From the NCBI RefSeq assembly GCF_018389385.1, contig NZ_CP062698.1:124001-188000 (forward strand): a stretch of 64,000 nucleotides of DNA, in the 5' to 3' direction. This document shows positions 3,549 to 51,422 of this stretch, one piece after another. A model generated the notes under the pieces. The model searched no databases and was not told where the DNA came from. It worked only from the letters and a program-made list of their open reading frames with translations. Position 1 is the stretch's first letter. Every line of letters begins with the position of its first letter. This stretch comes from Anthocerotibacter panamensis C109 (GTDB taxonomy: Bacteria; Cyanobacteriota; Cyanobacteriia; Gloeobacterales; Anthocerotibacteraceae). The translations under genes and the position numbers were made by a program.

Positions 3549-3836
3549 ATGGCGGTTAAAGTGATCATTCCGACGCCGTTGCGGCGCTACACGGCGAACC
3601 AGGAATCTCTGGAACTCGAAGGGGCGACCATCGGCGAGATCCTGGCCCAACTGACCCATCAGTATGCCGACCTCAAAAAACATCTCTACACCGAAGAAGG
3701 CACACTGCGCAACTTTGTCAACGTCTATCTCAACGACGAAGACATCCGCCACTTGCAAAAGAGCCAGACCCCGGTACAGTCCAGTGACATCGTTAGTATA
3801 GTGCCCTCAATCGCCGGAGGCAGCCTGGAGGCTTGA
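3549..3836 (+). CDS. MoaD/ThiS-family sulfur carrier protein with post-GG tail
   Basis: A 95-residue beta-grasp (ubiquitin-like) sulfur carrier. ATG at 3549 is chosen because GAGGGGAGGA lies 8 bp upstream. The C-terminal region ends SIAGG followed by four extra residues (SLEA). In this family the C-terminal diglycine is adenylated and thiocarboxylated by a MoeB/ThiF enzyme, which is exactly the next gene. The tail would have to be removed before activation, as is known for some carriers that need a protease. The extra codons also encode the GGAGG ribosome site of the next gene. Likely sulfur donor for molybdopterin, thiamine or cysteine synthesis; which one cannot be told from sequence. Confidence 0.85.
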   Translation: MAVKVIIPTPLRRYTANQESLELEGATIGEILAQLTHQYADLKKHLYTEEGTLRNFVNVYLNDEDIRHLQKSQTPVQSSDIVSIVPSIAGGSLEA

Positions 3837-24579: not shown

Positions 24580-26436
24580 TCAAACTTGGCGACGCGCCTG
24601 TTCTACTTTTTGGAGTAGCTCATCGATAGAAGCATTGCCCAAAGCCGACTGTGTGGCCTGATTGACCCTGAGCTCGACGAGCGGACGGGCGGATTCTTCC
24701 AGTACCTCGATAGCGGTATTGATCGCCTTGTAGTCCTGCTCGGCACAGACCCCCCGCAAGGACTCCAGCGCTGCCTGCATCGGCTCCAAGGCAGCGGCAG
24801 GGACAACCGCAACCATCTCAGCCAGCAGTTCCTCAGCTTTAGGAAAACGGCGTTCGGCCTCGACCCGAGCTTCGATAAGTTGGCGGCGGATCAGGTCATC
24901 TTCTCCGTGAGCGTAGGCGTCTTCGAGCATCTGCTCAATCGCATCCTCGCCCAAGCCATAGGAAGGACGCACCTCGACGCGTGCCTCGACTTCAGAGCGC
25001 AACTCCCGAGCGGTGACTCTAAGGATGCCGTTGGCGTCGATGAGAAACGTGATCTCTACTTTCGGCAGACCCGCAGGCATCGGCGGGAAACCCGTCAGCG
25101 TGAAACGGGCAAGGGAGCGGTTGTCTTGAGCTATTTCGCGCTCTCCTTGGAGCACATGGACCTCAATGCCGGTCTGCCCATCGACCGCTGTGGTAAACGT
25201 TTCGCGCGCCTGACAGGGGATCGGGTTGTTGCGGTCAATGAGGCGGCTCATCACCCCGCCTAAAGTCTCGATGCCCAACGATAAGGGTGTGACATCGAGC
25301 AGGAGGACATCTTTCGTCCCTCCTGCCAGCACATCCGCCTGCACTGCCGCTCCCAAGGCCACCACTTCGTCCGGGTTGAGTTCATCGTGAGGCGTGCGCC
25401 CAAACAGTTGCGCCACCCGAGCCTTGACCAGCGGAATGCGCGTGGAGCCCCCGACAAGGACCACTTCATCCATAGCTTGGGCACTCAAGCCCGCATCTTT
25501 GAGCGCTTGAGCGCATGGCCCTAGCGTCCTCTCGACCAAAGGGGCGATTAGCTGCTCGAAGTCGTTGCGCGTCACATAGCGGTCCCATAGTTTTCCCTCG
25601 GGCAGATCGACTTGGAGGCGGACCATCTCCTGGGTAGACAGGTCTTTTTTGGCCTCTTCCGCAAGCCTCCGCAACCGCCCGATCCACATCCGGTCATCGC
25701 TCAGATCCAGACCGTGGTGCTGTTTAATCTCCGCGAGGAACAGCGCAGTGAGCAGGTCGTCGATGTTGTCCCCGCCCAATTGGTTGTCCCCGGCGGTTGC
25801 CAACACTTGAAAAAGTCCCCCCTCCAAGCGCAGGATCGACACGTCAAACGTCCCTCCGCCCAGGTCATAGACCGCAATTGTCCCCTCTTTTTTCTGGTCG
25901 AGGCCATAGGCAAGGGCAGCAGCGGTAGGTTCATTGATGATACGCAACACGTCCAAACCCGCCATCTCCCCAGCGTCCTTGGTCGCCTGTCGTTGGGCAT
26001 CGTTGAAGTAGGCAGGGACAGTGATGACGACTTCATTGAGGATAAACTCACCCAAAAAGCGTTCCGCCCGACGCTTGAGCGTGGCGAGGATCATTGCCGA
26101 GAGTTGGACCGGCGTGTAGCTGCGCGACCCCACCGGGAAGCGTACAGAACGGCTATCGCCCGCGACCGGATAGGGCAAATACTGGAGTTCCCCGGTGAAA
26201 TCGGTCAGCCCCCGGCCCATAAAGCGCTTGATCGAGAAAAAAGTTCGTTCGGCAGGCGCAGCTTTACCCTGACGGGCGACGCTGCCCACCACCGGCTTAC
26301 CTGCTTCATCAAAAGCGACACAAGAAGGCAAGAGCCCCCGCCCCTCCTCATCCGGGACAATTTGCGGCCCCGAGGGCGTCATCCACGCCACCAGACTATT
26401 GGTAGTCCCCAGGTCAATGCCGATTACCTTACCCAT
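24580..26436 (-). CDS. hscA: Hsp70 chaperone, HscA-type
   Basis: A 618-residue Hsp70. The ATPase domain starts GIDLGTTNSLVAW, with phosphate-2 loop DLGGGTFDVSILRLEG and adenosine motif GGSTRIPLV; the substrate domain includes DVTPLSLGIETLGG. The acidic C-terminal EEVD tail of DnaK is absent, and the end (DAYAHGEDDLIRRQLIEAR) and total length agree better with HscA, the chaperone for iron-sulfur cluster transfer. No isc genes are adjacent. The ATG at 26436 is followed at once by the ATPase fold. A repeated integron-type promoter module begins 90 bp upstream and faces it. Confidence 0.75.
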   Translation of the reverse strand: MGKVIGIDLGTTNSLVAWMTPSGPQIVPDEEGRGLLPSCVAFDEAGKPVVGSVARQGKAAPAERTFFSIKRFMGRGLTDFTGELQYLPYPVAGDSRSVRFPVGSRSYTPVQLSAMILATLKRRAERFLGEFILNEVVITVPAYFNDAQRQATKDAGEMAGLDVLRIINEPTAAALAYGLDQKKEGTIAVYDLGGGTFDVSILRLEGGLFQVLATAGDNQLGGDNIDDLLTALFLAEIKQHHGLDLSDDRMWIGRLRRLAEEAKKDLSTQEMVRLQVDLPEGKLWDRYVTRNDFEQLIAPLVERTLGPCAQALKDAGLSAQAMDEVVLVGGSTRIPLVKARVAQLFGRTPHDELNPDEVVALGAAVQADVLAGGTKDVLLLDVTPLSLGIETLGGVMSRLIDRNNPIPCQARETFTTAVDGQTGIEVHVLQGEREIAQDNRSLARFTLTGFPPMPAGLPKVEITFLIDANGILRVTARELRSEVEARVEVRPSYGLGEDAIEQMLEDAYAHGEDDLIRRQLIEARVEAERRFPKAEELLAEMVAVVPAAALEPMQAALESLRGVCAEQDYKAINTAIEVLEESARPLVELRVNQATQSALGNASIDELLQKVEQARRQV

Positions 26437-26530
26437 CCCGATCTCGCGTGCTTCTCTCTCAAGGTAACGCGGATTGCGGCTGAAGCTTACCGCACCTTGT
26501 AGCGTCAATCACCCGGAACCCGCTCAAGGC

Positions 26531-26626
26531 TATCTATCCTTAAAAAAGGTATATTATCCGTAGTCTCTTAAGAAGTTCAAGCTTATCTAAATAGCCCTTG
26601 ACATCCCATACACCCTTAGTTATTCT
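26531..26626 (+). promoter_or_regulatory. Pc-like promoter module A
   Basis: TTGACA (26598-26603), 17 bp, TATTCT (26621-26626). Upstream is the shared box TATCC-TTA-(A/C)AAA followed by TTATCC, then AAGCTTATCTAAA. The same blocks recur at 30003, 32766 and 42906. In class 1 integrons a promoter in this position drives the cassettes. On the minus strand the box contains a -10-like TAATAT that faces hscA. Confidence 0.75.
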
Positions 26627-26729
26627 TGTCTCAAATATTTAATGTAAAATCTCTATAGGCTGCTTCACATTGAGCTATCAGGCGATGGTTCCTCAATCAC
26701 CGCCACCAACCAATCAAGGAAGTCTACTC

Positions 26730-26813
26730 ATGTTTGTCTGTGCCGTCTATCCTTACAAATTGGGTGTTATCCAACGGGTGGGGATACTTGTGTGCAGTCT
26801 AATCACTGGTTAG
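26730..26813 (+). CDS. attI-encoded leader peptide, copy A
   Basis: A 27-codon ORF starting MFVCAVYPYK, whose TAG stop lies inside the attI core. A purine-rich AAGGAAG sits before the ATG. The copy next to intI (33056) encodes MAGCAVYYYR, sharing CAVY-x-Y-basic, so the peptide, or at least its initiation region, is conserved. Class 1 integrons have an analogous attI1 short ORF (ORF-11) that raises translation of the first cassette. Confidence 0.5.
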   Translation: MFVCAVYPYKLGVIQRVGILVCSLITG

Positions 26814-26844: not shown

Positions 26845-27966
26845 ATGAGCGAATTGCATGAAGAATTACTCGCCATCGCAGATCGGCTAGAGCAATATCC
26901 AAATCAAGCTGAAAACCCTGACGTAAAGGCGCCTCTTGATGATCTTGAAGAGGCTACCATGACAATTGGAAAAGCCTGGAGTGGTTCCTGGCTTGGGTAT
27001 CACGCCCGCATTTATTATTCCACTCTCCAAGCACCCCCTCCTGGCGTACATTTTAGTCGGGAGTGGGGGATGATGCGTCTCTACGCTATTCAGGGGACAA
27101 CAGGAGAATGGCAGGAGTTTGACCAAGACAAGCTAGAGCAGGCCATACACAAATTAGCGGGAAACCCTGATCTAGGTTCTGCACGCCAACTGGCTGCTCA
27201 AGCTCAACGCGCCTTTGAAGATGATAAGCCAGAAGTGTTGTCGCTTCTCACCACCGCTATCGCTGAGCAGGAAGACTCCTTCCTGACCCGGCTCAGGGAG
27301 GAAGCTGACGCGATACAGCCTCTCACACGCTTAGAGGTTGTGCGGCATCTTCAGCCGTCAGGGGAAGTATGGTCACGAGATTCTCTCGCAGTAAGCCAGG
27401 GCTTTCATACACCTCCTCATATGTCCGTGCGAGCCGAAGTTATTGCACTTCGGCAGCCTTCCGACGCCTGCAGAGAACTAGCCCACATTGCGAGGAAAGC
27501 TGGGTCTCATCTTGCCCGGAAACGGCGGCAGTTAAGGAAGACCCGAGAAATAGGGACAAATGTGTTTATTGGGCACGGCCGTTCGCCGTTATGGAAGGAT
27601 CTGAAAGACTTCATTCAAGACCGTCTGAGTTTGCCATGGGATGAGTTCAATCGCGTGCCAGCGGCTGGCATTACGAACATCGCACGACTATCGGAGATGC
27701 TTGACGCCTCGGCAATCGCCTTCTTGATAATGACCGGTGAAGATGAGCAAGCGGACGGGAGGCTTCGTGCACGGATGAACGTCGTGCATGAGGCGGGCCT
27801 CTTTCAAGGCCGGTTGGGCTTCACACGAGCAATAGTTCTCCTCGAAGAGGGTTGTGAGGAATTCAGTAACATTCAAGGGCTTGGTCAAATCCGCTTTCCT
27901 CAGGGAAATATCAAAGCCATCTTTGAAGAAATTCGAATGGTTCTTGAGCGAGAAGGGCTATTATAG
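26845..27966 (+). CDS. TIR-like (Cap12/PF10137-type) nucleotide-binding protein, first cassette
   Basis: A 373-residue protein. The C-terminal 125 residues match the predicted nucleotide-binding TIR-like domain: TNVFIGHGRS at about 245, then SEMLDASAIAFLIMTGEDE, VVHEAGLFQGRLGF and LEEGCEEFSNIQGLGQI. This domain is the NADase effector of several antiphage systems, such as Cap12 of CBASS and Pycsar TIR effectors. The N-terminal 240 residues are helical and not recognised; they may sense the trigger. No cyclase is adjacent, so the signal is unknown. It lies 30 bp after the attI A core, the best-expressed slot of an integron, with GAGGG before the ATG. Confidence 0.75.
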   Translation: MSELHEELLAIADRLEQYPNQAENPDVKAPLDDLEEATMTIGKAWSGSWLGYHARIYYSTLQAPPPGVHFSREWGMMRLYAIQGTTGEWQEFDQDKLEQAIHKLAGNPDLGSARQLAAQAQRAFEDDKPEVLSLLTTAIAEQEDSFLTRLREEADAIQPLTRLEVVRHLQPSGEVWSRDSLAVSQGFHTPPHMSVRAEVIALRQPSDACRELAHIARKAGSHLARKRRQLRKTREIGTNVFIGHGRSPLWKDLKDFIQDRLSLPWDEFNRVPAAGITNIARLSEMLDASAIAFLIMTGEDEQADGRLRARMNVVHEAGLFQGRLGFTRAIVLLEEGCEEFSNIQGLGQIRFPQGNIKAIFEEIRMVLEREGLL

Positions 27967-28015
27967 TTCTTCCAGAACAAAATATAGAAAAAGACATCCC
28001 TGATGCGGCAACCAA

Positions 28016-29039: not shown

Positions 29040-29099
29040 GCCTAACAATTCATTCAAGCCGAAGCCGCTTCGCGGCTCGGCTTAATTCAGGCGTTAGAC
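29040..29099 (+). repeat. attC site 3 (60 bp, classic 59-base element)
   Basis: GCCTAAC to GTTAGAC with arms AAGCCGAAGCCGC and GCGGCTCGGCTT. It is close to the standard attC found with many class 1 integron cassettes. Beyond it, 29115-29174 holds a 19-codon ORF (MLKHSIPKQQ) that looks like the start of a cassette gene cut off by the HigBA segment. Confidence 0.92.
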
Positions 29100-29210: not shown

Positions 29211-29597
29211 CTACGCGCCCGATGGTTCAACTTTGGTGCGGGAGCGACGGGCTTTAGCATCCTGGTTAGGGGTAAGCGCGTTACCGAGAACTGCCAGACT
29301 TGCCAGACGCACTGCTGGCCGGTCAGGAAATTCAACAATAAGTTGGAGATCCCCACCCATTGCTTTGACATAACTGCGGAGGGTGGAAAGTAACAGGTCA
29401 CTTCGCTGTTCAATGCGTGAAATACTGTCCTGTCCGATCCCTAAGGTCTCCGCCATGCGTTCTTGGGTCAGCCTGCGAGCTTGTCGTAATTGTCGCAAGG
29501 TTAATTCTTCTTCAATCAGGGCTACTGCCTTTGCCGTAACCGCTGCTTGGCGTTCTGGGGGCAGTTGGTTGATCTTACTGTCTAGCGTGGTAGCCAT
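29211..29597 (-). CDS. higA: HigA-type antitoxin, XRE family
   Basis: A 128-residue protein with a helix-turn-helix (RQARRLTQERMAETLGIGQDSISRIEQ) at about residues 38-64 and a C-terminal extension. It is the second gene of a toxin-first pair, 2 bp after higB. Like many HigA proteins it should neutralise HigB and repress the operon. The pair runs against the other cassettes, as toxin-antitoxin cassettes with their own promoter often do. Confidence 0.82.
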   Translation of the reverse strand: MATTLDSKINQLPPERQAAVTAKAVALIEEELTLRQLRQARRLTQERMAETLGIGQDSISRIEQRSDLLLSTLRSYVKAMGGDLQLIVEFPDRPAVRLASLAVLGNALTPNQDAKARRSRTKVEPSGA

Positions 29598-29599
29598 GT

Positions 29600-29962
29600 T
29601 CAGGTACCTCCTCGTTTTAATCGTGCCAAATGAGCATCAAATCGTGAATCCGCTTTCTTGATAAGCCGTTTATAAAAGAGTTGTTCACTCATCCCGGACT
29701 TGTCGCCTGCCACCAGCAAAATAGCCTGACGCTGGGGATCGAAGGCAAAAGCGAGCCGCCAAACCCCATCTGCTGCATCAAAGCGCAACTCTTTCATGTT
29801 GGAGTGCTTGGAATCCTTGAGGGTATCCACCCAAGGTCTGCCCAGCGTTGGGCCAAACTCCGCCAAGAGCTTGGCTCGAGCCAGCAGTTCATCTTGTACC
29901 TCAAGGGCGAACTGGTCAAACTCGGGTTCAAAGGCTTCATCGAAGGCGACAGTCCAAGCCAT
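29600..29962 (-). CDS. higB: HigB-type toxin, Gp49-like
   Basis: A 120-residue protein of the phage-derived Gp49-like/HigB family, related to RelE mRNA interferases: LGRPWVDTLKDSKHSNMKELRF, then WRLAFAFDPQRQAILLVAGDK and YKRLIKKAD. It precedes higA. A copy of the intI-type upstream box lies at 30003-30026, just before its start, so a relic of the intI promoter may drive it. There is no attC on either side of the pair. Confidence 0.82.
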   Translation of the reverse strand: MAWTVAFDEAFEPEFDQFALEVQDELLARAKLLAEFGPTLGRPWVDTLKDSKHSNMKELRFDAADGVWRLAFAFDPQRQAILLVAGDKSGMSEQLFYKRLIKKADSRFDAHLARLKRGGT

Positions 29963-30000
29963 AGCTCAATGATGGTCTTCAATACATATGTTGTCAAGGC

Positions 30001-30096
30001 CATAATATCCTTGCAAATGGCATGTTATCTGCACTTACTAGAAAAATACAAGCTTGTCCAAAACTCGTTGACACTCCTTTGCTGTGTCGCTAATCT
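30001..30096 (+). promoter_or_regulatory. Pc-like promoter module B
   Basis: TTGACA (30068-30073), 17 bp, TAATCT (30091-30096), preceded by TATCCTTGCAAAT, ATGTTATC and AAGCTTGTC, the same blocks as modules A, C and D. The attI-like core begins only 14 bp after the -10, whereas modules A and C have about 170-270 bp there; B has a deletion. On the minus strand TAACAT in the box faces higBA. Confidence 0.75.
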
Positions 30097-30098
30097 AT

Positions 30099-30356
30099 AT
30101 GCAGAAACGGCTTAATCACTGGTTAGGCCCTGAGGAGCAAAGACAAGTAGAACCGGTCGCTATCATTCTTCTCATCATTGGGATTTTCCTGATAACTCAA
30201 CGATGGTTTTGGTTATTGGTCTTTGGCATCGGAGGGCTTGCGGCAGCATTTGCCACACTTGCCAGTATCTTTCACTTTCAAATTCTTGGCGCGTTGGGTT
30301 TCTTTTTTCTGATGCTCATATGCCGGGGCATTGCAGGTGCAATTGCTGATGCCTAA
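30099..30356 (+). CDS. Small integral membrane protein read through attI B
   Basis: 85 residues from ATG 30099 (an upstream in-frame ATG is at 30084, inside the promoter -10 region). Three hydrophobic stretches fill most of the protein (VAIILLIIGIFLITQ, FWLLVFGIGGLAAAFATLA, ILGALGFFFLMLICRG). The first codons (MQKR) are like the start of the leader next to intI (MQKK at 32864), and the coding sequence crosses the attI core, so this looks like a leader-cassette fusion. Its TAA stop lies inside the following attC. Function unknown. Confidence 0.55.
   Translation: MQKRLNHWLGPEEQRQVEPVAIILLIIGIFLITQRWFWLLVFGIGGLAAAFATLASIFHFQILGALGFFFLMLICRGIAGAIADA
30110..30128 (+). other. attI-like recombination core, copy B
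   Basis: GCTTAA-TCACTGG-TTAGGC: the same 7-nt spacer as copy A and one change from it in each arm. It lies within the coding sequence of the small membrane protein. Confidence 0.7.
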
Positions 30357-31360: not shown

Positions 31361-31426
31361 GCCTAACCAGTCGCTCCACCTGACACCGCCCGGAATGGGC
31401 GTTATAGGTGAGTTTAGTAGTTAGAT
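31361..31426 (+). repeat. attC site at the 3' end of intI
   Basis: GCCTAAC to GTTAGAT, 66 bp, with arms CACCTGACACCGCCC and GGGCGTTATAGGTGAG. It is nearly the same sequence as the attC sites at 34953 and 39144. The right box ends on the last base of the intI stop codon. Confidence 0.8.
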
Positions 31427-32748
31427 TACTTATCCAGATCTAGTGGACTCTTTAAGGGTTTGTAGTCAGATTTGATGGTGTGGGTATAAATCATCGTGGT
31501 GCGTACATCACTATGACCCAGCATCTGCTGGATCTGCCGGATATCGTAATTGGCTTGTAATAAGTGAGTGGCAAAACTGTGGCGCAAGGTGTGGGGGGAG
31601 ACCCGTTTAGGGATACCTGCGATTAATGCTGCGGCTTTTACCGCTCGTTGGATATCAGAATCCTGCACATGATACCGACGTAGCTCACCCGTCTGCTCAA
31701 CCCGGGTCAGGTTCGGGGCTGGGAAGAACCATTGCCATACCAGCTCACGCGCCGCGCCTTTGGCTTTCTTCTCAAACCCTCCTGGCAGGAACACTCCCGC
31801 ATAGCCTTTGGCTAAGTCTTCCTGATGGAGCAGTTTCACCCGCTCGACTTGAGCTAAAATTTCACCCTGGATACTCTCAGGTAAGGGCACAGTCCGGGAT
31901 CTATCCCCCTTGCCAAATTGTACTGAGAGCATCCCCGTATCAAAATTGAAATTATGTAACCGGAGTGAGATGGCCTCAGAGAGCCGCAACCCACAGCCAT
32001 AGAGGATCATCCCCACCAGCTTGTAGGGCGGTTGCAGCTCAGACATGAGCGCTGTGACCTCTGCGCGCGAAAGTACGGTCGGTATAGCTTTGCGCTGTTT
32101 GGCTCGTGGAGTATTTCTTAGGTCGCCTAAGTCCCGGTTGAACACATGCCGGAATAAAAACAACAGCGCGTTAAAAGCCTGATTCTGGGCGGCGGCGGAG
32201 ACTTGTTGCCGAACCGCCAAGTCCGCAAGAAACCGTTGGACATCGGCGGTTGTGACGGATTCTGGAGGTTTATGCTCCAGGAACCGGCAGCATTTCCAGA
32301 TCCAAACGGAGTAGGCTTCCAGGGTCCTGGGTGAATAGTGGCGCAGCATGATTTGTTCTTGGAGCCGAGCCGCGACTTCCTGCCAAGCAGGGGTCTTCAC
32401 CTCTGCCACGCTTGGGCTTATGGGTGAAGCAATAGTGACAGGCGGAAGGGGCAATTTGCTTACGCGGCCTGCGGCAACGGGCTTGGGCGGCAAGGGCAAG
32501 AGTAGACTCGCATAATACTCCACCGCCTGTTGAGCTTCAGCTTGCTGTTTTACGGTCTGGCCCTTGGTCGCCAGCTTCGCGATAAAGGACGGCACACTTT
32601 CAAGGTCGCTGGGTGGATGCCCGTACTTGTCGCAGAAATCCAGGTAGAAGCGCACCCATTTGCGATAGTTGGCCCAGGACGCAGGTGGGATCTGTTGCGC
32701 TGCCAGCACTTGATCAAACCTGGGGTCAACCTCTGGGAATTTGTTCAT
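31426..32748 (-). CDS. intI: Integron integrase (IntI-type tyrosine recombinase)
   Basis: A 440-residue protein. Tyrosine-recombinase catalytic residues are visible: Arg in GCGLRLSEAISLR, Lys in FGKGDRSR, His-x-x-Arg in PHTLRHSFATHL, His in LGHSDVRTTMIYTH, where the Tyr is the nucleophile. Between the Lys and HxxR lies the IntI-specific extra segment (AAREL-VWQWFFPAPNL, then YHVQDSDIQRAVKAAALIAGIPK), which separates IntI from XerC/D. About 120 extra residues precede the usual SAM-like N-terminal domain (LQEQIMLRHYSPRTLEAYSVW), longer than the roughly 320-340 residues of most IntI. It should recombine attI and folded single-strand attC sites. It is divergent from the array to its right, the normal integron arrangement. 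Confidence 0.92.
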   Translation of the reverse strand: MNKFPEVDPRFDQVLAAQQIPPASWANYRKWVRFYLDFCDKYGHPPSDLESVPSFIAKLATKGQTVKQQAEAQQAVEYYASLLLPLPPKPVAAGRVSKLPLPPVTIASPISPSVAEVKTPAWQEVAARLQEQIMLRHYSPRTLEAYSVWIWKCCRFLEHKPPESVTTADVQRFLADLAVRQQVSAAAQNQAFNALLFLFRHVFNRDLGDLRNTPRAKQRKAIPTVLSRAEVTALMSELQPPYKLVGMILYGCGLRLSEAISLRLHNFNFDTGMLSVQFGKGDRSRTVPLPESIQGEILAQVERVKLLHQEDLAKGYAGVFLPGGFEKKAKGAARELVWQWFFPAPNLTRVEQTGELRRYHVQDSDIQRAVKAAALIAGIPKRVSPHTLRHSFATHLLQANYDIRQIQQMLGHSDVRTTMIYTHTIKSDYKPLKSPLDLDK

Positions 32749-32763
32749 GACCGTGTGTGCGGT

Positions 32764-32856
32764 ATTTTCTTACAAATCGTATGTTATCCATTGCTACTAG
32801 TCCAGCGCAAGTTTAAGAATTAATCGTTGACACCTACGAATCTCTATTGCTAAACT
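32764..32856 (+). promoter_or_regulatory. Pc-like promoter module C beside intI
   Basis: TTGACA (32827-32832), 18 bp, TAAACT (32851-32856) reading toward the cassettes. Upstream is TTCTTACAAAT, ATGTTATCC. Read on the minus strand, this box gives TTGCGC, 18 bp, TAACAT as a candidate intI promoter. The block recurs in modules A, B and D. Confidence 0.7.
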
Positions 32857-32863
32857 CCACGTA

Positions 32864-32974
32864 ATGCAGAAAAAACCGTCGGTCTGTGGCCTGTATATCG
32901 ACCTTTGCCGCAAGGCAATCATCTCTATCTGGCTCAATACTTACTCTATGGGTGCCTTGCCGGGGGAGCAATGA
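32864..32974 (+). CDS. Possible 36-codon leader downstream of Pc
   Basis: Starts MQKKPSVCGLYIDL shortly after the -10. The start ATGCAGAAA is shared with module B at 30099, where it is fused to a cassette gene. The end of this ORF covers a segment (ATGGGTGCCTT) also found in module D near 43096. The 80 bp between its stop and the next leader show nothing recognisable. Confidence 0.3.
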   Translation: MQKKPSVCGLYIDLCRKAIISIWLNTYSMGALPGEQ

Positions 32975-33055
32975 GGAGTCAGTCGTGACAATTTTTCGGC
33001 GGGTCGGTTTTAACTGCTAATCTGTGATCAAAAAAAACCAAGCGTGAGGTCGAGC

Positions 33056-33127
33056 ATGGCTGGTTGTGCGGTTTATTATTACAGATCCGTTGGCTATGCC
33101 TCCGATGGGGCGTGTGCTGCGATCTAA
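33056..33127 (+). CDS. attI-encoded leader peptide, copy C
   Basis: A 23-codon ORF starting MAGCAVYYYR, with GTGAGGT before the ATG; its TAA stop is formed by the left attI arm. It aligns with the 27-codon leader of copy A (CAVY-x-Y and the following 60 bp). Confidence 0.5.
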   Translation: MAGCAVYYYRSVGYASDGACAAI

Positions 33128-33140
33128 TTACTGGTTGGGC
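33122..33140 (+). other. attI-like recombination core, copy C (intI-linked)
   Basis: ATCTAA-TTACTGG-TTGGGC, same layout as copies A and B (TAA-N7-TT). It lies 374 bp upstream of the intI start and just before the first cassette of the right-hand array. As the only copy next to intI, it is probably the active attI. Confidence 0.75.
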
Positions 33141-34197: not shown

Positions 34198-34269
34198 TTC
34201 TAACAAACGGTTCAAGCCGACGTCCCTCCGCCTGCGGCTCCGGGCCGCGGCTTAACCTGGGCGTTAGGC
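34198..34269 (+). repeat. attC site 6
   Basis: TTCTAAC to GTTAGGC, 72 bp; arms TTCAAGCCGACG and GGCCGCGGCTTAA with CCGCCTGCGG centre. Another 60-70 bp proteobacterial-style site. Confidence 0.85.
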
Positions 34270-34308
34270 CCCACACATTTAACATTTCCTTATTCAGGCG
34301 ACTCACAA

Positions 34309-34683
34309 ATGAAATCACTTCTCCTTGCCGTTCTCTGTCTCCTCGCGCCACTACCGACACTCGCGCAGCAGAACTGCGACAGACCGACAGATGACTTTGA
34401 TGGTCTTTACTGCCTAAACAAGATCTACATCGAGACTGATGCAGAACTTAATCAGGTCTATAGAGATCTCGCTCCTCGCCTGACGCCTAAGGGCAGGTCA
34501 CGGCTGAAGGAGACCCAATTGGCATGGATCGAGGACCGAAACTCATCTTGCTCCAGGAAAATCGACTCCGGCTTCTACGTAAACCTCTCTTGCGCCACAA
34601 GCTTGACTCGAAGCCGTCTTCAGTTTCTTCAAGAGCGTGTTCGTGAGTGCAAGAGCTCCGGCTGCCTGCCGAGCAAGCTCTAG
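34309..34683 (+). CDS. LprI-like (DUF1311) secreted protein, cassette gene
   Basis: A 124-residue protein with a clear Sec signal peptide ending LAQQ near residue 21. The mature part has DRPTDDFDGLYCLNKIYIETDAELNQVYRDL and LKETQLAWIEDRNSSC, the LprI/DUF1311 pattern, with six Cys in the mature protein suited to disulfides. Some LprI proteins inhibit lysozyme, so a role in envelope defence is possible. Confidence 0.7.
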   Translation: MKSLLLAVLCLLAPLPTLAQQNCDRPTDDFDGLYCLNKIYIETDAELNQVYRDLAPRLTPKGRSRLKETQLAWIEDRNSSCSRKIDSGFYVNLSCATSLTRSRLQFLQERVRECKSSGCLPSKL

Positions 34684-34717
34684 TGTCCTGGCCTCTTCTC
34701 CGCATCGACCAAGTGGC

Positions 34718-34752
34718 ACCTAACTGGTCGTGGACTCGGACCTTCGTTAGGC
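34718..34752 (+). repeat. Short attC-like site 7
   Basis: ACCTAAC to GTTAGGC only 35 bp apart, with inner arms GGTC and GACC. It has the outer boxes but lacks the usual length, so it is either internally deleted or only marginally active. Confidence 0.6.
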
Positions 34753-34761
34753 TGCATTAGT

Positions 34762-34950
34762 CAGCGAATAGCGAATTAAGAAGAGAAGAGCCGCGAATTG
34801 TTTGAGTTAGCGGAACAGATTAATCGAATAGCGAATTCAGGAAGAGAAGCGAATTAGTTTCAGGTGGCTGAACAGATCAATCGAATAACGAATTTAGGAA
34901 GAAAGATGAACTGGTTTACGGTTGCGAAACTCACCAATCGAATAGCGAAA
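34762..34950 (+). repeat. Gene-less cassette with 3.3 tandem repeats of about 57 bp
   Basis: Three units beginning AATCGAATAGCGAATT and containing AGGAAGAGAAG and GCTGAACAGAT, plus a partial fourth, fill the whole space between two attC sites. No ORF of useful length is present. The third unit ends in a variant (GGTTGCGAAACTCACC) that also ends the related cassette at 38062. It may encode an RNA or serve as a regulatory or binding-site array. Confidence 0.8.
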
Positions 34951-34952
34951 AT

Positions 34953-35019
34953 GCCTAACCAGGCGCTCCACCTGACACCGCCTCAAAGCGGGCGGCGCAG
35001 GTGAGCTTGGTCGTTGGGC
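34953..35019 (+). repeat. attC site 8
   Basis: GCCTAAC to GTTGGGC, 67 bp; arms CTCCACCTGACACCGCC and GGGCGGCGCAGGTGAG. Belongs to the same sequence family as the sites at 31361 and 39144. Confidence 0.88.
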
Positions 35020-35046: not shown

Positions 35047-36912
35047 ATGCAACGATATCCAGAAAACATTCACGTAAATATTGAAGATTTCCGTCGCTCC
35101 GATTGGAAATCAGCAATTGACTCTCGTGCCCGAGAAGACTACCCCAGCATGTGGCAATCCCTTTCTGCTGCTGCTAGAGCCGCTATAGAAAGTGGAGAGA
35201 TTGCTGAAGGAAAAGTGTTGTGGTTGCTGGCAGACGCATGCTCCATGATGCTCAACCCACGTAGCGCCAACGAGCCATTCAAACCATTCATGGTGATGAA
35301 TGGTAAACGGTCTTCAGTACCGGAAGACTTCCAGCAGTCTGATGTCACGTTGTTTGCCCAAATTGCTGAGGAGATTGATGATATATGGCTCCAAGCACGC
35401 TTGGCTGATCTCGTTTGGCTCTTAAAACGTCCCCGCAGTCCTCAGCATGCACTTTTGGCTATCGACGCTTACCGCAAAATTCCCTTGGATGCAAAAACGT
35501 GGGTGCGTGGTGGACGAGAATGTTGGGAGCGTGCTCTTAGCCTGACCTGGATGCTCAGGGCTGGCGCAGGTGAACGGATAAAAGAGATGGAAGTAACGAT
35601 CATCTCCGCATTCGAGGCTGCCAAGGCTGAAGACGGATTCCTGGCCCTCTGGCTGACTGACCTGTTGGCAACGAACCATCTTGGACACGATTATGGCGTC
35701 GATATTGCGAGGAAACTGGAATCGCTGGCGCGGAGCTTTGATGCCGAAGGTGATTTGCACAGCGCCCGAGAATTCTTCGCAGCTTCTGCTAAGTGGTTCC
35801 AACAAACAGGAGATGACGCCAAGGCAACAGAAATAACCGTATGTGTCGCTGAGGGTTGGGTCAAGGAGGCTGTTGCCCGGATGTCGTCCGCACAGCCGAG
35901 TCATATGGTAGCAGCCAGCTTCTACGAAAATGCCATCCAAACCTACCGCTCCATTCCTCGCAGTAAGCGTGCCATTCATCGAATCGACGAGCGTATAGCC
36001 GAACTGCACAGGCGCCTGAACGAGGCAGGAGAGCGATCACTGGACGAGATGGGCATAATCACCTCGCCTTCCATGGACATTACGGAACTCATCGAAAAGG
36101 CGCAGAATGCAGTGCGAGACAAGACGACCTTGGATGCTCTCGCGGCGTTCGCCAACATCTATCGGGGCGCACGGGTAGCCCAGATACGAGAGTTCGCGGA
36201 GAAAATGCTCCGCGAACATCCATTGCAAGCGCTTGTTTCTGCCACCCATATGTCGAGAGATGGTCGCGTGATTGCCAAGCGTCCGGGCATGGGCTTTGGC
36301 GATGCCCATTCTAATGAATATCAGGCGACCCTTTGGGCTGAGATGGTCAGACACTATGGGATGGAATTGAGCATCGTTGTGCAAGGAGACATATGGCCTG
36401 CCTTGGAGATCCTGATTCTCGAACATCGGTTACGCGAGAGCGACTTTATTGCCATTGCCACCCGCTCCCCAATCGTTCCCACAGGCCGCGAACGTCTGTT
36501 CGGTAAGGCCCTTTTCGCTGGATGTGAAAAGGACTTTGTTGTAGCGCTACATCTTTTGGTTCCGCAGATTGAGCACATGGTGCGCTGGCATCTCAAGGCG
36601 ACTGGCATCAAGACCACTACCCTCGACAAAGATGGAATTGAGAATGAGAACGGGCTGAGTACGCTCATGGACCTTCCCGAAGCGACGCAGATCTTAGGCG
36701 AAGATGTGTCATTCGAGCTCAAGGCCCTTTTCTGCGATGCTTTTGGGCCAAATCTTCGCAATGAACTCGCTCATGGTTTGCTCGACGACGAGGCTTGCCA
36801 ATCCACATATGCAATCTATGCATGGTGGCTCGGATTGAGGCTTGTATTTAATACATTCTGGAATGCGAAGAGAAAGGCGAGTGCGGGAAAGGGAGAGGAT
36901 GAAAAGCCATAG
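35047..36912 (+). CDS. DUF4209-family HEPN-like protein, large cassette gene
   Basis: A 621-residue mostly helical protein. The last quarter contains LRNELAHGLLDD at about residue 573, the RNxxAHG signature that defines DUF4209 and fits the R-x(4)-H active site of HEPN ribonucleases. The first 300 residues are rich in helix pairs of TPR-like appearance (SAREFFAASAKWFQQTGD). HEPN proteins frequently act in antiviral or toxin systems. At 1.9 kb it is unusually large for an integron cassette. It starts 27 bp after its attC neighbour without a strong ribosome site. Confidence 0.65.
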   Translation: MQRYPENIHVNIEDFRRSDWKSAIDSRAREDYPSMWQSLSAAARAAIESGEIAEGKVLWLLADACSMMLNPRSANEPFKPFMVMNGKRSSVPEDFQQSDVTLFAQIAEEIDDIWLQARLADLVWLLKRPRSPQHALLAIDAYRKIPLDAKTWVRGGRECWERALSLTWMLRAGAGERIKEMEVTIISAFEAAKAEDGFLALWLTDLLATNHLGHDYGVDIARKLESLARSFDAEGDLHSAREFFAASAKWFQQTGDDAKATEITVCVAEGWVKEAVARMSSAQPSHMVAASFYENAIQTYRSIPRSKRAIHRIDERIAELHRRLNEAGERSLDEMGIITSPSMDITELIEKAQNAVRDKTTLDALAAFANIYRGARVAQIREFAEKMLREHPLQALVSATHMSRDGRVIAKRPGMGFGDAHSNEYQATLWAEMVRHYGMELSIVVQGDIWPALEILILEHRLRESDFIAIATRSPIVPTGRERLFGKALFAGCEKDFVVALHLLVPQIEHMVRWHLKATGIKTTTLDKDGIENENGLSTLMDLPEATQILGEDVSFELKALFCDAFGPNLRNELAHGLLDDEACQSTYAIYAWWLGLRLVFNTFWNAKRKASAGKGEDEKP

Positions 36913-38061: not shown

Positions 38062-38189
38062 CAGCGAATAGCGAATCAGGAAGAGCAACGAATTGGTTTG
38101 AGATAGCTGAACAGATTAATTGAACATCGAATTCAGGAAGAGGCATGAACTGATTTAAGGTTGCGAAACTTACTAATCGAATAGTGAAA
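38062..38189 (+). repeat. Second gene-less repeat cassette (2.3 units)
   Basis: Two units and a partial third of the same about 57-bp repeat as at 34762, starting TCAGCGAATAGCGAAT. The terminal unit is the same variant as the last full unit there (GGTTGCGAAACTTACT). Unit number differs (2.3 against 3.3), so copies have been gained or lost since duplication. No ORF. Confidence 0.75.
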
Positions 38190-41995: not shown

Positions 41996-42041
41996 TGGAG
42001 AATTCTGGGGTATATTCAGCCACTTGTGCTACAACAAAGAC

Positions 42042-42821
42042 ATGATTTTATCTACACCCACGATTCAGTATCCAACGGGAGACGGACAGCCCGTGGCCGA
42101 AAGCTATGTTCATTTCTGGGCCATTGCTACTATTGCTCAAGTACTCACCCAATATCTAGCAACTCAACCGACCCCGGAACCTAAACCCCGCTACCGCGAA
42201 CAACCCGGCACCGTGCTTGCCAATCAATTCCTGTACTATGCCCAGGGCTATCCCCGGCTGCGGATAGCTCCCGATGTGATGGTGCTTTTTGATGTTGCGG
42301 CGGGAGGCAGGGATAACTACAAAATCTGGGAAGAGCAGCAGATTCCGGCGGTGATTTTTGAAGTGACCTCCCCTAAGACCCAAGACCAAGACCAGCATTC
42401 TAAGCGAGATTTATATGAGCAGATGGGGGTGATGGAGTATTGGCTCTTTGACCCGAAGGGTGAATGGATACCAGAGCAGTTGCGGGGCTATCGGTTAGTT
42501 GGCGAGGAATACGTCTTGAACCCAGAACCGATCAGCCATCAACTGGGATTACGGCTGGAAGTGGCAGGAGCATTATTGAACTTTTATCGCTTGAGCGATG
42601 GCGAGAAACTACAGACTTTACCAGAAATGGCCCAGCAAGCAGCATTTGAGCGGCAACGGGCGGCATTTGAGCAGCAACGAGCGGAACTAGCCGAGCAGCA
42701 GACAGAATTAGAACGGCATCGGGCTGAGCAAGCAGAACAGGAAAAAGCTCTGGAGCAGCAACGGGCCGAACGCCTAGCCCAACGTCTGCGGGCATTGGGT
42801 GTAGACCCTGAAGAGCTTTAG
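42042..42821 (+). CDS. Uma2-family (DUF820) restriction-like endonuclease, cassette gene
   Basis: About 259 residues from ATG 42042 (the frame is open to 42024). The PD-(D/E)XK core shows RIAPDVMVLFDV, PAVIFEVTSPKT with catalytic Glu and Lys, and YEQMGVMEYWLFDP. A 70-residue Gln/Glu/Arg coiled coil (FERQRAAFEQQRAEL) ends the protein. This family is strongly expanded in cyanobacteria; cellular role unknown. No attC follows; promoter module D lies 80 bp downstream. Confidence 0.8.
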   Translation: MILSTPTIQYPTGDGQPVAESYVHFWAIATIAQVLTQYLATQPTPEPKPRYREQPGTVLANQFLYYAQGYPRLRIAPDVMVLFDVAAGGRDNYKIWEEQQIPAVIFEVTSPKTQDQDQHSKRDLYEQMGVMEYWLFDPKGEWIPEQLRGYRLVGEEYVLNPEPISHQLGLRLEVAGALLNFYRLSDGEKLQTLPEMAQQAAFERQRAAFEQQRAELAEQQTELERHRAEQAEQEKALEQQRAERLAQRLRALGVDPEEL

Positions 42822-42900
42822 TACGTTTCCAGAATATTTTGACCCTCAGCATTTCTTCTAACCTTGGGCAACTTCTAGGAACTTACCCATAGCCGTTTCT

Positions 42901-43129
42901 GCCGTATATCCTAACAAAACGCATGATACCCACAGTCTCCTGAAACTTTCAAGCTTATCTAAAATAGCCCTTGACAACCCATAGGCCCTGAGTTACTTTT
43001 ATCTCATATAGCATATATAAAACCTCTATAAACCGCTTCACAAGCTGCTTTCAAGTTTTTTATATGCGTTTCCGCAATATTTAAGAGCGTCTTATGGGTG
43101 CCTTAAAGGGAGGATATTGAGGGGAAAGT
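42901..43129 (+). promoter_or_regulatory. Pc-like promoter module D, truncated
   Basis: TTGACA (42971-42976), 17 bp, TACTTT (42994-42999), preceded by TATCCTAACAAAA, ATGATACCC and AAGCTTATCTAAA. Downstream, TAAAACCTCTATA and GCTTCACA match module A, and TATGGGTGCCTT with GAGGATATTGAGG matches module C. An attI core is not found; an IS30 remnant follows at once. Confidence 0.65.
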
Positions 43130-49475: not shown

Positions 49476-51422
49476 CTATTGCGTGGCCTGCCATGCCCGG
49501 AGCACTTCCGCTACGCTCCAGGCTTGGGCAAAACAGCCTCGGGGGGTCATGGGGGCATCCCCATCAAAAATTTCGCTGATGGACCCCAGCCCATGGGCCA
49601 TAAGGTGGTGTGCCATGGGCAGCAAAAAAGACCGCGCCCGTGCCGGGTCTTGATAAACGCGTAGATGGGCCAGGGTAAAAGGCCCCAAAAGCCACCCCCA
49701 AACGGTGCCCTGATGGTAAGCTCCGTCTCTTTGGAGCGCACTGCCCCCGTAATGACCTTGGTAGCAAGGATCGGTCGGCGCTAGCGAACGCAGGCCATGG
49801 GACGTGAGTAGATGACGGGCACAGACCTCGACTACCGCCCGCTCTTGGGCGGGGGGGAGCAGACGCTCAGGCAAAGACACCGCAAAAAGCTGGTTGGGGC
49901 GCAAGCTCGGGTCGGCCCCATCCGGTCCATCCAACACGTCATAGCAATAGCCCAAGTCCTCCGCCCAGAAGCGGCTAAAGTGCTCTAGCACCTGCTTCGC
50001 CTGCTCCTCGTATGCCGTGCCGGACTTCCCTAACTGCTGCGCGAAGCGAACCATCGACCTGAGCGCGTTATACCAAAGCGCATTGATCTCAATGGGTTTC
50101 CCGATGCGGGGGGTGACGACCCAATCTCCGACCTTGGCATCCATCCAAGTCAGTTGCACCCCCGCTTCTCCCGCATAGAGCAAGCCGTCTGTGGGGTCTA
50201 CATGGATGTTATGGCGCGTGCCCCGGTGGTGCAAGTCCATAATATCGATGAGTACGGGGAAGAGTTCCTCAAGCAGCGCATCATCCCCAGTCGCCTGATA
50301 GTAGGCGCGGATGGCTTCAAAGTACCAGAGCGTGGCATCGACGGTATTGTATACAGGGCGCGCTCCTTGGTCGGGGAAACGGTTCGGGAGCATACCCTGA
50401 TCCACATGGTGCGCAAACGTTTGGAGGATGGTCCGCGCAAGCTCGGGTCGTCCCGTAACCAACGTGAGACCGGGCAGGCTAATCATGGTGTCTCTCCCCC
50501 AGTCGGAGAACCAGGGATACCCAGCGAGAATCGTCTTGCCCATCGTGCCATCAGCCAGCGGGCGCACAACAATACATTGGTCTGCCGCCAGGACCAGTTG
50601 TTGTAGCCAGGGCTCGGTCATATTCCCGGCAGTGGTCAGGAGTTGCTGTTCATGGCGATGCTGAGCTTCCAGGGAGCCTTGGGCATCAGGCTCCAGGCTA
50701 GCCGTCACAGTAAAAGATTCGCCGGGATGGAGCGTGTGGATAAAAGTCGCGCAGTGTAGATGGTCCTCCTGATGGTCTAGCCCCCGGTGCTGTTCGAGCG
50801 CCAGTTGGAAGCCGTAATACCATGCGTGGGCCACCTCGACCGTCCCCCGGTCAGCGGCTAGATAAAAGGGCACTGCTGCTGGAAAAGCCTGCACGCAGAC
50901 CCCCCGTTCCAGCGCGTGGACCTCCATCTGCCAGCCCTGCGCGTGGGTCTGTCCGTGGAAATCTCGGTAGTTGACGAGCGCCTTAGCCGTCACAGTCAGG
51001 GGTTTTGTCCCCCGCCGGAGGGTGTAGCGAATGCAGGTCGTGTTCTGGCCTTGGGGCATCCAGACCTGTTTTTCCAAAAGCGCATCGGCGCAGGCAAACT
51101 GCCAAACCGGGACGCTCCCCTCCAGACGGAAATGCTCAATATGGAGATAGCCTTGAGGCGCAATCGTGCCATCTGCCCAACGGTGCGTCGCCAATGGGAA
51201 GTCCACACCCCCATACTGAGCGGTCTCTTCGAGTTGGGCCAGCAAGAGCGTCCGCGCCAGAGGTGGCTGGAGGGCGGCGACCAGAAGTCCATGGTAGCGG
51301 CGGGTGAGTAGACCAGCCACGCTCCCGCAAGCATACCCCCCAAGGCCATTGGTGACCAGCCATTCCCGCGCCTCAGCAGTCGGCAACACCCCACAAACTT
51401 CTCGTCCGAAATGGATATTCAC
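49476..51422 (-). CDS. Glycogen debranching enzyme (amylo-alpha-1,6-glucosidase, GH133)
   Basis: A 648-residue protein. EWLVTNGLGGYACGSVAGLLTRRYHGLLVAA at the N-terminus is typical of bacterial GDE-type enzymes; the catalytic (alpha/alpha)6 domain has GYPWFSDWGRDTMISLPGLTL and the Glu-containing AGEAGVQLTWMDAK. It should hydrolyse alpha-1,6 branches of glycogen left by phosphorylase. It stands alone, convergent with the multicopper oxidase and divergent from acs with about 250 bp between. Confidence 0.9.
   Translation of the reverse strand: MNIHFGREVCGVLPTAEAREWLVTNGLGGYACGSVAGLLTRRYHGLLVAALQPPLARTLLLAQLEETAQYGGVDFPLATHRWADGTIAPQGYLHIEHFRLEGSVPVWQFACADALLEKQVWMPQGQNTTCIRYTLRRGTKPLTVTAKALVNYRDFHGQTHAQGWQMEVHALERGVCVQAFPAAVPFYLAADRGTVEVAHAWYYGFQLALEQHRGLDHQEDHLHCATFIHTLHPGESFTVTASLEPDAQGSLEAQHRHEQQLLTTAGNMTEPWLQQLVLAADQCIVVRPLADGTMGKTILAGYPWFSDWGRDTMISLPGLTLVTGRPELARTILQTFAHHVDQGMLPNRFPDQGARPVYNTVDATLWYFEAIRAYYQATGDDALLEELFPVLIDIMDLHHRGTRHNIHVDPTDGLLYAGEAGVQLTWMDAKVGDWVVTPRIGKPIEINALWYNALRSMVRFAQQLGKSGTAYEEQAKQVLEHFSRFWAEDLGYCYDVLDGPDGADPSLRPNQLFAVSLPERLLPPAQERAVVEVCARHLLTSHGLRSLAPTDPCYQGHYGGSALQRDGAYHQGTVWGWLLGPFTLAHLRVYQDPARARSFLLPMAHHLMAHGLGSISEIFDGDAPMTPRGCFAQAWSVAEVLRAWQATQ

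Follow-up and report, generated by a model that had tools for sequence, protein, structure and literature searches.

The superintegron platform of Vibrio cholerae is built from intIA, Pint, Pc and attI, and the Pc near attI drives the first cassettes (PMC3948777). By the account in PMC2426708, nearly a third of intI genes are pseudogenes, and about a fifth of the carriers have more than one intI. Delta-attI cassettes end in attI-derived sequence and not in attC, and can still recombine; in most of them the retained part is 14-18 nt of attI1 or attI2, in one type it is 244 nt, and in one it is a complete attI1 (PMC12901181). The toxin-antitoxin (TA) genes of integrons are transcribed from cassette-borne promoters (PMC8876359), and TA cassettes are described as stabilising arrays (PMC11551772).

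The locus compared here with these systems lies in a window of 64,000 nucleotides (the whole stretch of DNA that was analysed), which corresponds to positions 124001-188000 of the 4,187,797-bp single-contig genome of Anthocerotibacter panamensis C109. The initial annotation of this window described a box in three copies facing intI, higB and hscA, and proposed that the latter two genes inherited the integrase promoter together with its regulation. The box is real. It is the control region of a chromosomal integron, with more parts and more copies than first described. As in the V. cholerae platform, inverse Pint and Pc lie close together between intI and attI; unlike that platform, several copies accompany one full-length intI (PMC3948777). 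Here too, intI has been lost at some copies and occurs more than once in the genome, two states that are common by the intI survey (PMC2426708). Unlike the intI pseudogenes described there, attI and Pc persist while intI is reduced to about eight codons or is gone, and the platforms were found by means of an attI model (PMC2426708). Unlike in delta-attI cassettes, what remains here is a Pc-leader-attI region preceded by a reversed gene (PMC12901181). Unlike the TA cassettes described there, higBA and a vapBC pair at 776 kb are reversed and lie in the intI slot (PMC8876359, PMC11551772).

Copies of the control region in the window and the genome

The window contains four copies of the box: A (26504-26812), B (29999-30123), C (32758-33137) and D (42867-42999). 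The order is a minus-strand integrase promoter (PintI), an opposing plus-strand cassette promoter (Pc) and then, in A-C, attI. The conserved plus-strand Pc, followed in A-C by a leader and the attI core, is what identifies the box as a PintI-Pc-attI control region. In the repeat search, B (70%) and D (75%) join A in one 57-nt repeat family; module C lies outside this family and was brought in by alignment. Boxes A and D are 74% identical versus 51-56% for every other pair; the four may thus have been acquired separately instead of arising by duplication.

Module A begins with a remnant of the intI 5' end (26504-26527), followed by R1 (26528-26545), PintI-A (26551-26580, minus strand), Pc-A (26598-26626, plus strand), R2 (26741-26758) and the attI-A core (26793-26810). 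Box B, a platform remnant between higBA and the next cassette, spans the R1 motif (29999) to the attI core (30123). It carries PintI-B (30022-30051, minus strand, TTGTAT-18-TAACAT), a relic promoter facing higB whose -10 ends 59 nt from the higB ATG; Pc-B (30068-30096, plus strand, TTGACA-17-TAATCT), a candidate promoter facing the B cassettes; and the attI-B core (30108-30123, ACCAGTGATTA on the minus strand). The R2 motif is absent from B. Module C consists of R1 (32758-32775), PintI-C (32781-32810, minus strand), Pc-C (32827-32856, plus strand), R2 (33067-33084) and the attI-C core (33118-33135). Module D, overlooked in the first description, has an intI 5' remnant (42867-42890), R1 (42900-42917), PintI-D (42923-42952, minus strand) and Pc-D (42971-42999, plus strand); no attI was found in it, and a transposase-like fragment lies on its right.

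The box of module C faces the intact intI (31426-32748, minus strand), as described initially. This gene is the sole full-length copy found in the genome, and only module C retains it. It encodes a tyrosine recombinase (PF00589 and PF13495) with an N-terminal extension of about 120 amino acids. Its relatives were found at 37 loci in named records, with best segments 26-69% identical, and most of those matching the extension belong to records of delta-proteobacteria (Desulfobacteraceae and others), Nitrospirae and anammox bacteria. IntI proteins about 120 amino acids longer than usual are described as clade 15 (PMC2426708). By eye, the first 80 residues of the extension resemble a second SAM-like region, which is a candidate assignment.

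Beside intI, module C carries an attI with a GTTRRRY crossover box, recognised from the comparison of C with a copy at 3.497 Mb and from an extended attI model. The downstream cassettes are bounded by attC-like folds at 29040, 30351, 31361 and 39144 (plus strand) and at 34953 (minus-strand scan); the scan was strict and had no shuffled control, and symmetric sites appear on both strands. Further attC-like sites were seen by eye near 28015, 28646, 33605 and 34199 and are absent from the strict scan. A match at 51175, beyond the array, is probably spurious.

A genome-wide search with a sequence-only model built from boxes A-D found a fifth copy, from outside the model, at 3,497,074-3,497,199 (E 1.9e-24); it is a near-copy of C and lies beside a truncated intI. 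A weak sixth copy at 3,523,137 (E 0.024) adjoins another truncated intI. Two partial matches, at 776,015 and 150,742 (E 0.12 and 0.26), are R2 motifs of attI sites.

Candidate promoters facing higBA and the HSP70 gene

The minus-strand -10-like elements reported initially are present: TAATAT in A, TAACAT in B and C, and TATCAT in D, all four located 18 bp from a TTGnnn -35 element. The boxes do face higB and hscA, and they descend from an intI control region, as judged from their homology and from the short stretches resembling the 5' end of intI in A and D. The distance between box edge and start codon is 37 bp for higB (ATG at 29962) and 92 bp for the HSP70 gene (conserved ATG at 26436). By this homology the elements are integrase promoters by descent; the part of the original proposal that did not hold is the dependence of higBA on them, because a promoter-like site lies nearer to the gene.

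Promoters were scored with an E. coli-type matrix, and the host is a cyanobacterium. The yardstick of chance was the best score on one strand of random 130-bp pieces of the window (median 4.6, 90% 7.8, 95% 8.7, 99% 12.1); the platforms were scanned over longer stretches and on both strands, which makes the comparison lenient. PintI-B scores 8.1, tied with another site, and PintI-C, which precedes the intact intI, scores 7.4, behind an unrelated site at 7.5. As these values are close to the random 90th percentile, the former near it and the latter under it, the minus-strand promoters rest on homology and position and not on the score. PintI-A (TTGAAC-18-TAATAT) scores 9.8. The best PintI of all, PintI-D (12.5), has no recognised codirectional gene; what it faces is a convergent gene of the Uma2 family (PF05685), at its 3' end, and the minus-strand ORFs below D overlap that gene antisense. 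A retained -10 is therefore no proof of use, and the good score of PintI-A was dropped as evidence of use.

The opposing promoter is TTGACA in all four copies, with a spacing of 17 bp (18 in C) and -10 elements TATTCT (A), TAATCT (B), TAAACT (C) and TACTTT (D). Pc outscores all other sites in platforms A-C and ranks third in D. Its -35 is invariant in all six columns, versus three of six for PintI; the -10 elements are about equal in this respect (three of six columns for Pc, four of six for PintI). The best conserved parts of the box are the Pc -35 and the extended attI. The activities of PintI and Pc are predicted from sequence throughout.

The gene pair beside box B consists of the toxin-like gene higB (29600-29962, minus strand, PF05973, Gp49) followed by the antitoxin-like gene higA (29211-29597, minus strand, HTH_3/HTH_31), which is the order of a HigBA system with a Gp49/RelE-type toxin gene first and an HTH antitoxin gene second. 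Its own candidate promoter (29969-29997, minus strand, TTGACA-17-CATCAT, with CATATG in the spacer) sits between box B and the gene, with the -10 six nt before the ATG and PintI-B farther upstream. It scores 11.1 versus 8.1 for PintI-B (p 0.01, 200 shuffles). A homologue of higB (E 1e-10) was found in 23 of 291 genomes, A. panamensis included, and 25 higB upstream regions, again including its own, were compared; the loci were chosen by the higB match. In 11 of the 25 the best match has a spacer of 17 and its -10 lies six to eight nt from the start codon; these are the own higB and 10 of the 24 homologues in other cyanobacteria (for example TTGAAG-17-CATAAT and TTGCAA-17-TATAAT). The 11 include two identical upstream regions from one genome (L099 and L112) and two (L094 and L095) for which shuffles scored as well in 9-10% of cases. 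In the remaining 14 the shared geometry was not the accepted best match. These include one region (L101) that fits the geometry and was left out, its aligned start being no start codon and its score no better than that of shuffles; four of the 25 aligned starts are not start codons.

Since a complete promoter-like site of stronger score and shared geometry lies nearer to higB, dependence of higBA on PintI-B was rejected. From these sequence features, higBA appears to bring its own promoter and not to need PintI-B, which would then add only read-through from behind. The CATATG in the spacer, present in six of the 25 upstream regions including the own one, is a possible HigA operator, and a transcript from PintI-B would cross it.

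The start of the HSP70 gene hscA (24580-26436, minus strand, PF00012) is conserved and reads MGKVIGIDLGTTNS, at 26436. Within 400 bp of it no promoter candidate outscores PintI-A, whose -10 is 115 nt from the ATG; in the 95 nt closest to the ATG, where the intI remnant lies, no promoter score exceeds 5.6. The box was not found in the 246 bp present on the contig upstream of the HSP70 orthologue of a same-family genome (78%), nor in the 400 bp upstream of that of a same-order genome (70%). Thus hscA may be transcribed from the old integrase promoter PintI-A.

For a common regulator, three LexA patterns were scored in A-D against random pieces of the window, and none of the LexA-like sites stood out; the nearest was CTGT-N8-ACAG with one mismatch, in C, and 12% of the random pieces contained a match as good. 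In V. cholerae one CRP box serves both promoters and LexA acts on Pint (PMC3948777); here no such LexA-like site stood out. Cyanobacterial LexA recognises divergent motifs (PMC3108266), so a missing match does not exclude SOS control. SOS control through a LexA box was set aside, and no signal common to intI, higBA and hscA was found in these sequences.

These observations bear directly on the original proposal, namely that inherited integrase promoters drive both higBA and hscA in response to the signal that controls intI. It accounts for the PintI-like elements facing both genes, for the rank of PintI-A upstream of hscA and for the lack of a box before the two HSP70 orthologues. It is nevertheless unlikely, given the promoter-like site between box B and higB, the lack of an outstanding LexA-like site in A-D and the fact that the best-scoring PintI, in D, has no recognised gene to drive. 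The reading we consider probable is that loss of the adjacent integrase gene left the box behind as the control region of an integron, that higBA has its own promoter, and that hscA may use PintI-A.

Probable integrase loss, cassettes and the occupants of the integrase slot

Next to R1, modules A and D resemble the first eight codons of intI at the position homologous to the intI start. Remnant A shares 17 of 24 bases with the intI start of a relative, as many as at 3 of about 128,000 positions in the window, and fewer with the own one (15 of 24, equalled at 12 positions). Remnant D matches the own intI start at 17 of 24 bases, equalled at 2 of about 128,000 positions. Searches of the window by tblastn and blastn found no intI fragment above noise besides C, and both remnants were recognised by position alone. 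Modules A and D thus seem to keep the first codons of a lost intI. In box B the homology ends at R1 and is followed by higBA with its promoter; a leftover intI start codon in B was considered and rejected, since the TTG taken for one is the -35 of the higBA promoter. The simplest reading is that the window records three integrase losses through different breaks.

The intI copies beside the fifth and sixth boxes (L023 and L024, G000:C1:3497210-3497996 and 3523270-3524014) break off near residue 220 and are followed by two CRISPR-like repeats; the pattern of this repeat has 173 matches in the genome (two mismatches at most). The same repeat builds a large array near 3.84 Mb. By eye, the truncated intI copy of platform F adjoins a tRNA-like sequence.

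In the preferred reading, the integrase gene would have been lost next to A, B and D, with PintI left there as a relic. The orphan boxes are most likely kept for Pc, which would transcribe the cassettes to the right, and for attI, which would be a landing site that the surviving integrase can serve in trans. In B, higBA would fill the place of the integrase gene and be transcribed from its own promoter. After the deletion of intI-A, the integron would border on its left on hscA, a host gene that may be read from PintI-A. The homology of the boxes, the short intI remnants, the conservation of Pc and attI and the geometry of the higB promoter can be read in the DNA itself; the order of events in the history of the boxes would be a reconstruction from them.

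Use of these sites in trans is suggested by the cassettes. Over 1058 bp, module C and its copy at 3.497 Mb share 97.7% identity; they diverge right after the GTTGGGC box of attI and carry different first cassettes. At the integrase-less attI at 776 kb (L141, G000:C1:771500-780500), the first cassette matches an inner cassette of array C (window positions 34263-35013) with 98.1% identity over 751 bp, and this match starts exactly at the GTTAGGC box of the 776-kb site. This suggests that IntI acts in trans there; the agent of the move, presumably IntI, and its direction are conjectural.

The intI slot at 776 kb holds vapBC-like genes in reverse, in the same orientation as higBA in B; the pair has a PIN match (PF01850) and a MazE-like match (PF04014), the latter just under its cut-off (24.1 versus 24.7 bits). 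At 2.677 Mb (L140, G000:C1:2673500-2682500) the slot holds a Uma2 gene that points the opposite way, and assorted genes occupy the slot in other genomes. As TA pairs are found at only two of the eight attI loci of the genome, they are not a rule. Uma2-family genes recur just to the left of integron leaders, in module D (window 42024-42821) and at L140, and by DNA similarity a Uma2-type gene lies to the left of the leader of G001 C13.

The right-hand box, GTTAGAT, of an attC-like site (31361-31426, plus strand) shares bases with the intI stop codon, as though intI together with its platform sat in the slot of a cassette. Near 3599-3665 of the 776-kb locus, an attC-like right-hand box likewise overlaps the stop codon of vapC. 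It is conceivable that units of a reversed gene, Pc and attI are mobile in the manner of delta-attI cassettes, and that higBA with box B and intI with box C moved as such units. The boundaries of intI in C and of vapC fit this idea, as does the placing of the reversed vapBC in the slot that higBA has in B. However, about 110 bp separate higA from the attC-like site on the left of the higBA unit (29040-29099, plus strand), neither an excised circle nor another insertion of an entire unit was observed, module A abuts a host gene, and the Uma2 gene in the 2.677-Mb slot points the other way. Movement as units is therefore improbable, and loss of the integrase gene with retention of Pc and attI is preferred.

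Several features of the cassettes were noted in passing. An ATG that lies within the platform can serve as the start of the first cassette ORF after attI-B (window 30084-30356, MQKRLNHWLGP...), and the same kind of start is found at 4560 of L141 (MQKLYNYWLGP...); the platform may thus supply a start codon. Two cassette genes (26845-27966 and 35047-36912) have a CAP12/Pycsar-type TIR domain (Pfam) and a candidate match to the defence system PDC-S39 (PADLOC), suggesting defence cargo. Direct repeats with a spacing of 57 bp (AATCGAATAGCGAATT...) lie beside attC-like sites at window positions 34800-34949 and 38096-38188, and also occur in L141 and L024.

Extended attI sites and the R1/R2 motif

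The motif TTGTAAGGATAWACGGCA occurs twice in the fuller platforms, as R1 just before the intI start and as R2 inside attI. In 12 of 14 loci R2 is 49-51 bp from the attI core, as located by a script that allowed 40-110 bp; the other two are a site mis-picked by the script and set by hand (G001 C87) and B, which has no R2. The motif alone, with one mismatch allowed, is present in 32 of 388 genomes, partly outside attI.

An extended attI model made from 13 sites of nine genomes was run on 388 cyanobacterial genomes and found the site in 13, of which nine had supplied the model and four were new (G002, G063, G077 and G111). With strict filters, it found seven sites in the A. panamensis genome. The 28 rows obtained, less two R1 copies and one partial site (G001 C158) and with B added by hand, give 26 loci; module D, having no attI, is outside this count. 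In the flank examined, 24 of the 26 loci have no full-length intI. A full-length gene is present at the other two, module C and the site of G049, whose intI has two in-frame TGA codons. Truncated copies lie beside three loci (two in A. panamensis and one in G063), and one further locus has a 17-residue scrap (E 0.023). At the remaining 20 no intI match was found at E 0.05 with the own intI as the only query, a threshold below which remnants as short as that of A fall; three of the right flanks are shorter than intI (29, 581 and 1224 bp) and three more are only 1.8-2.0 kb long. A narrow literature search (one library, titles and openings of abstracts) for several, orphan or second attI sites found no such arrangement described.

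The position of R1 raises the possibility that it is a binding site of the integrase, that IntI controls its own gene through it, and that the orphan boxes place hscA under the control of IntI. R2, a copy of R1, keeps its nearly constant distance from the attI core, and R1 and R2 are more alike within than across platforms: in a permutation of seven platforms, with the near-copy E left out, the likeness was reached in 56 of 5040 permutations. The result weakens to 56 of 720 when either C or F is dropped, however, and conversion between direct repeats would yield the same pattern. In a scan for direct repeats upstream of intI in other genomes, 56 loci were entered and 21 passed the filters; the repeat scored above all 60 shuffles in four of the 21, one of them that of G049, and an R1/R2-like repeat as a general rule upstream of intI was rejected. 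Control through R1 is thus a tentative proposal, on balance not expected to hold, and the preferred reading does not call upon it. A wider speculation, the least probable of those considered here, is that in these cyanobacteria the integrase-less attI-Pc platforms are standing satellite integrons served in trans by one IntI, that IntI also binds R1 at its own promoter, with the orphan boxes thereby bringing host genes such as hscA under its control, and that TA operons in the integrase slot (higBA and vapBC) keep the platforms locked where they are.

Platforms of this kind, with attI and Pc and no integrase gene, are a more interesting matter than the promoter question that led to them. Surveys of integrons usually begin with intI or with attC clusters. 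An attI that can be recognised by itself reveals platforms that have no intI and still have a promoter and a landing site, and a search based on attI lets one ask if one integrase serves several arrays in a genome. The locus also shows how TA operons with their own promoters come into the integrase slot, and hscA offers a concrete case of a host gene that may have come under the control of an integrase promoter.
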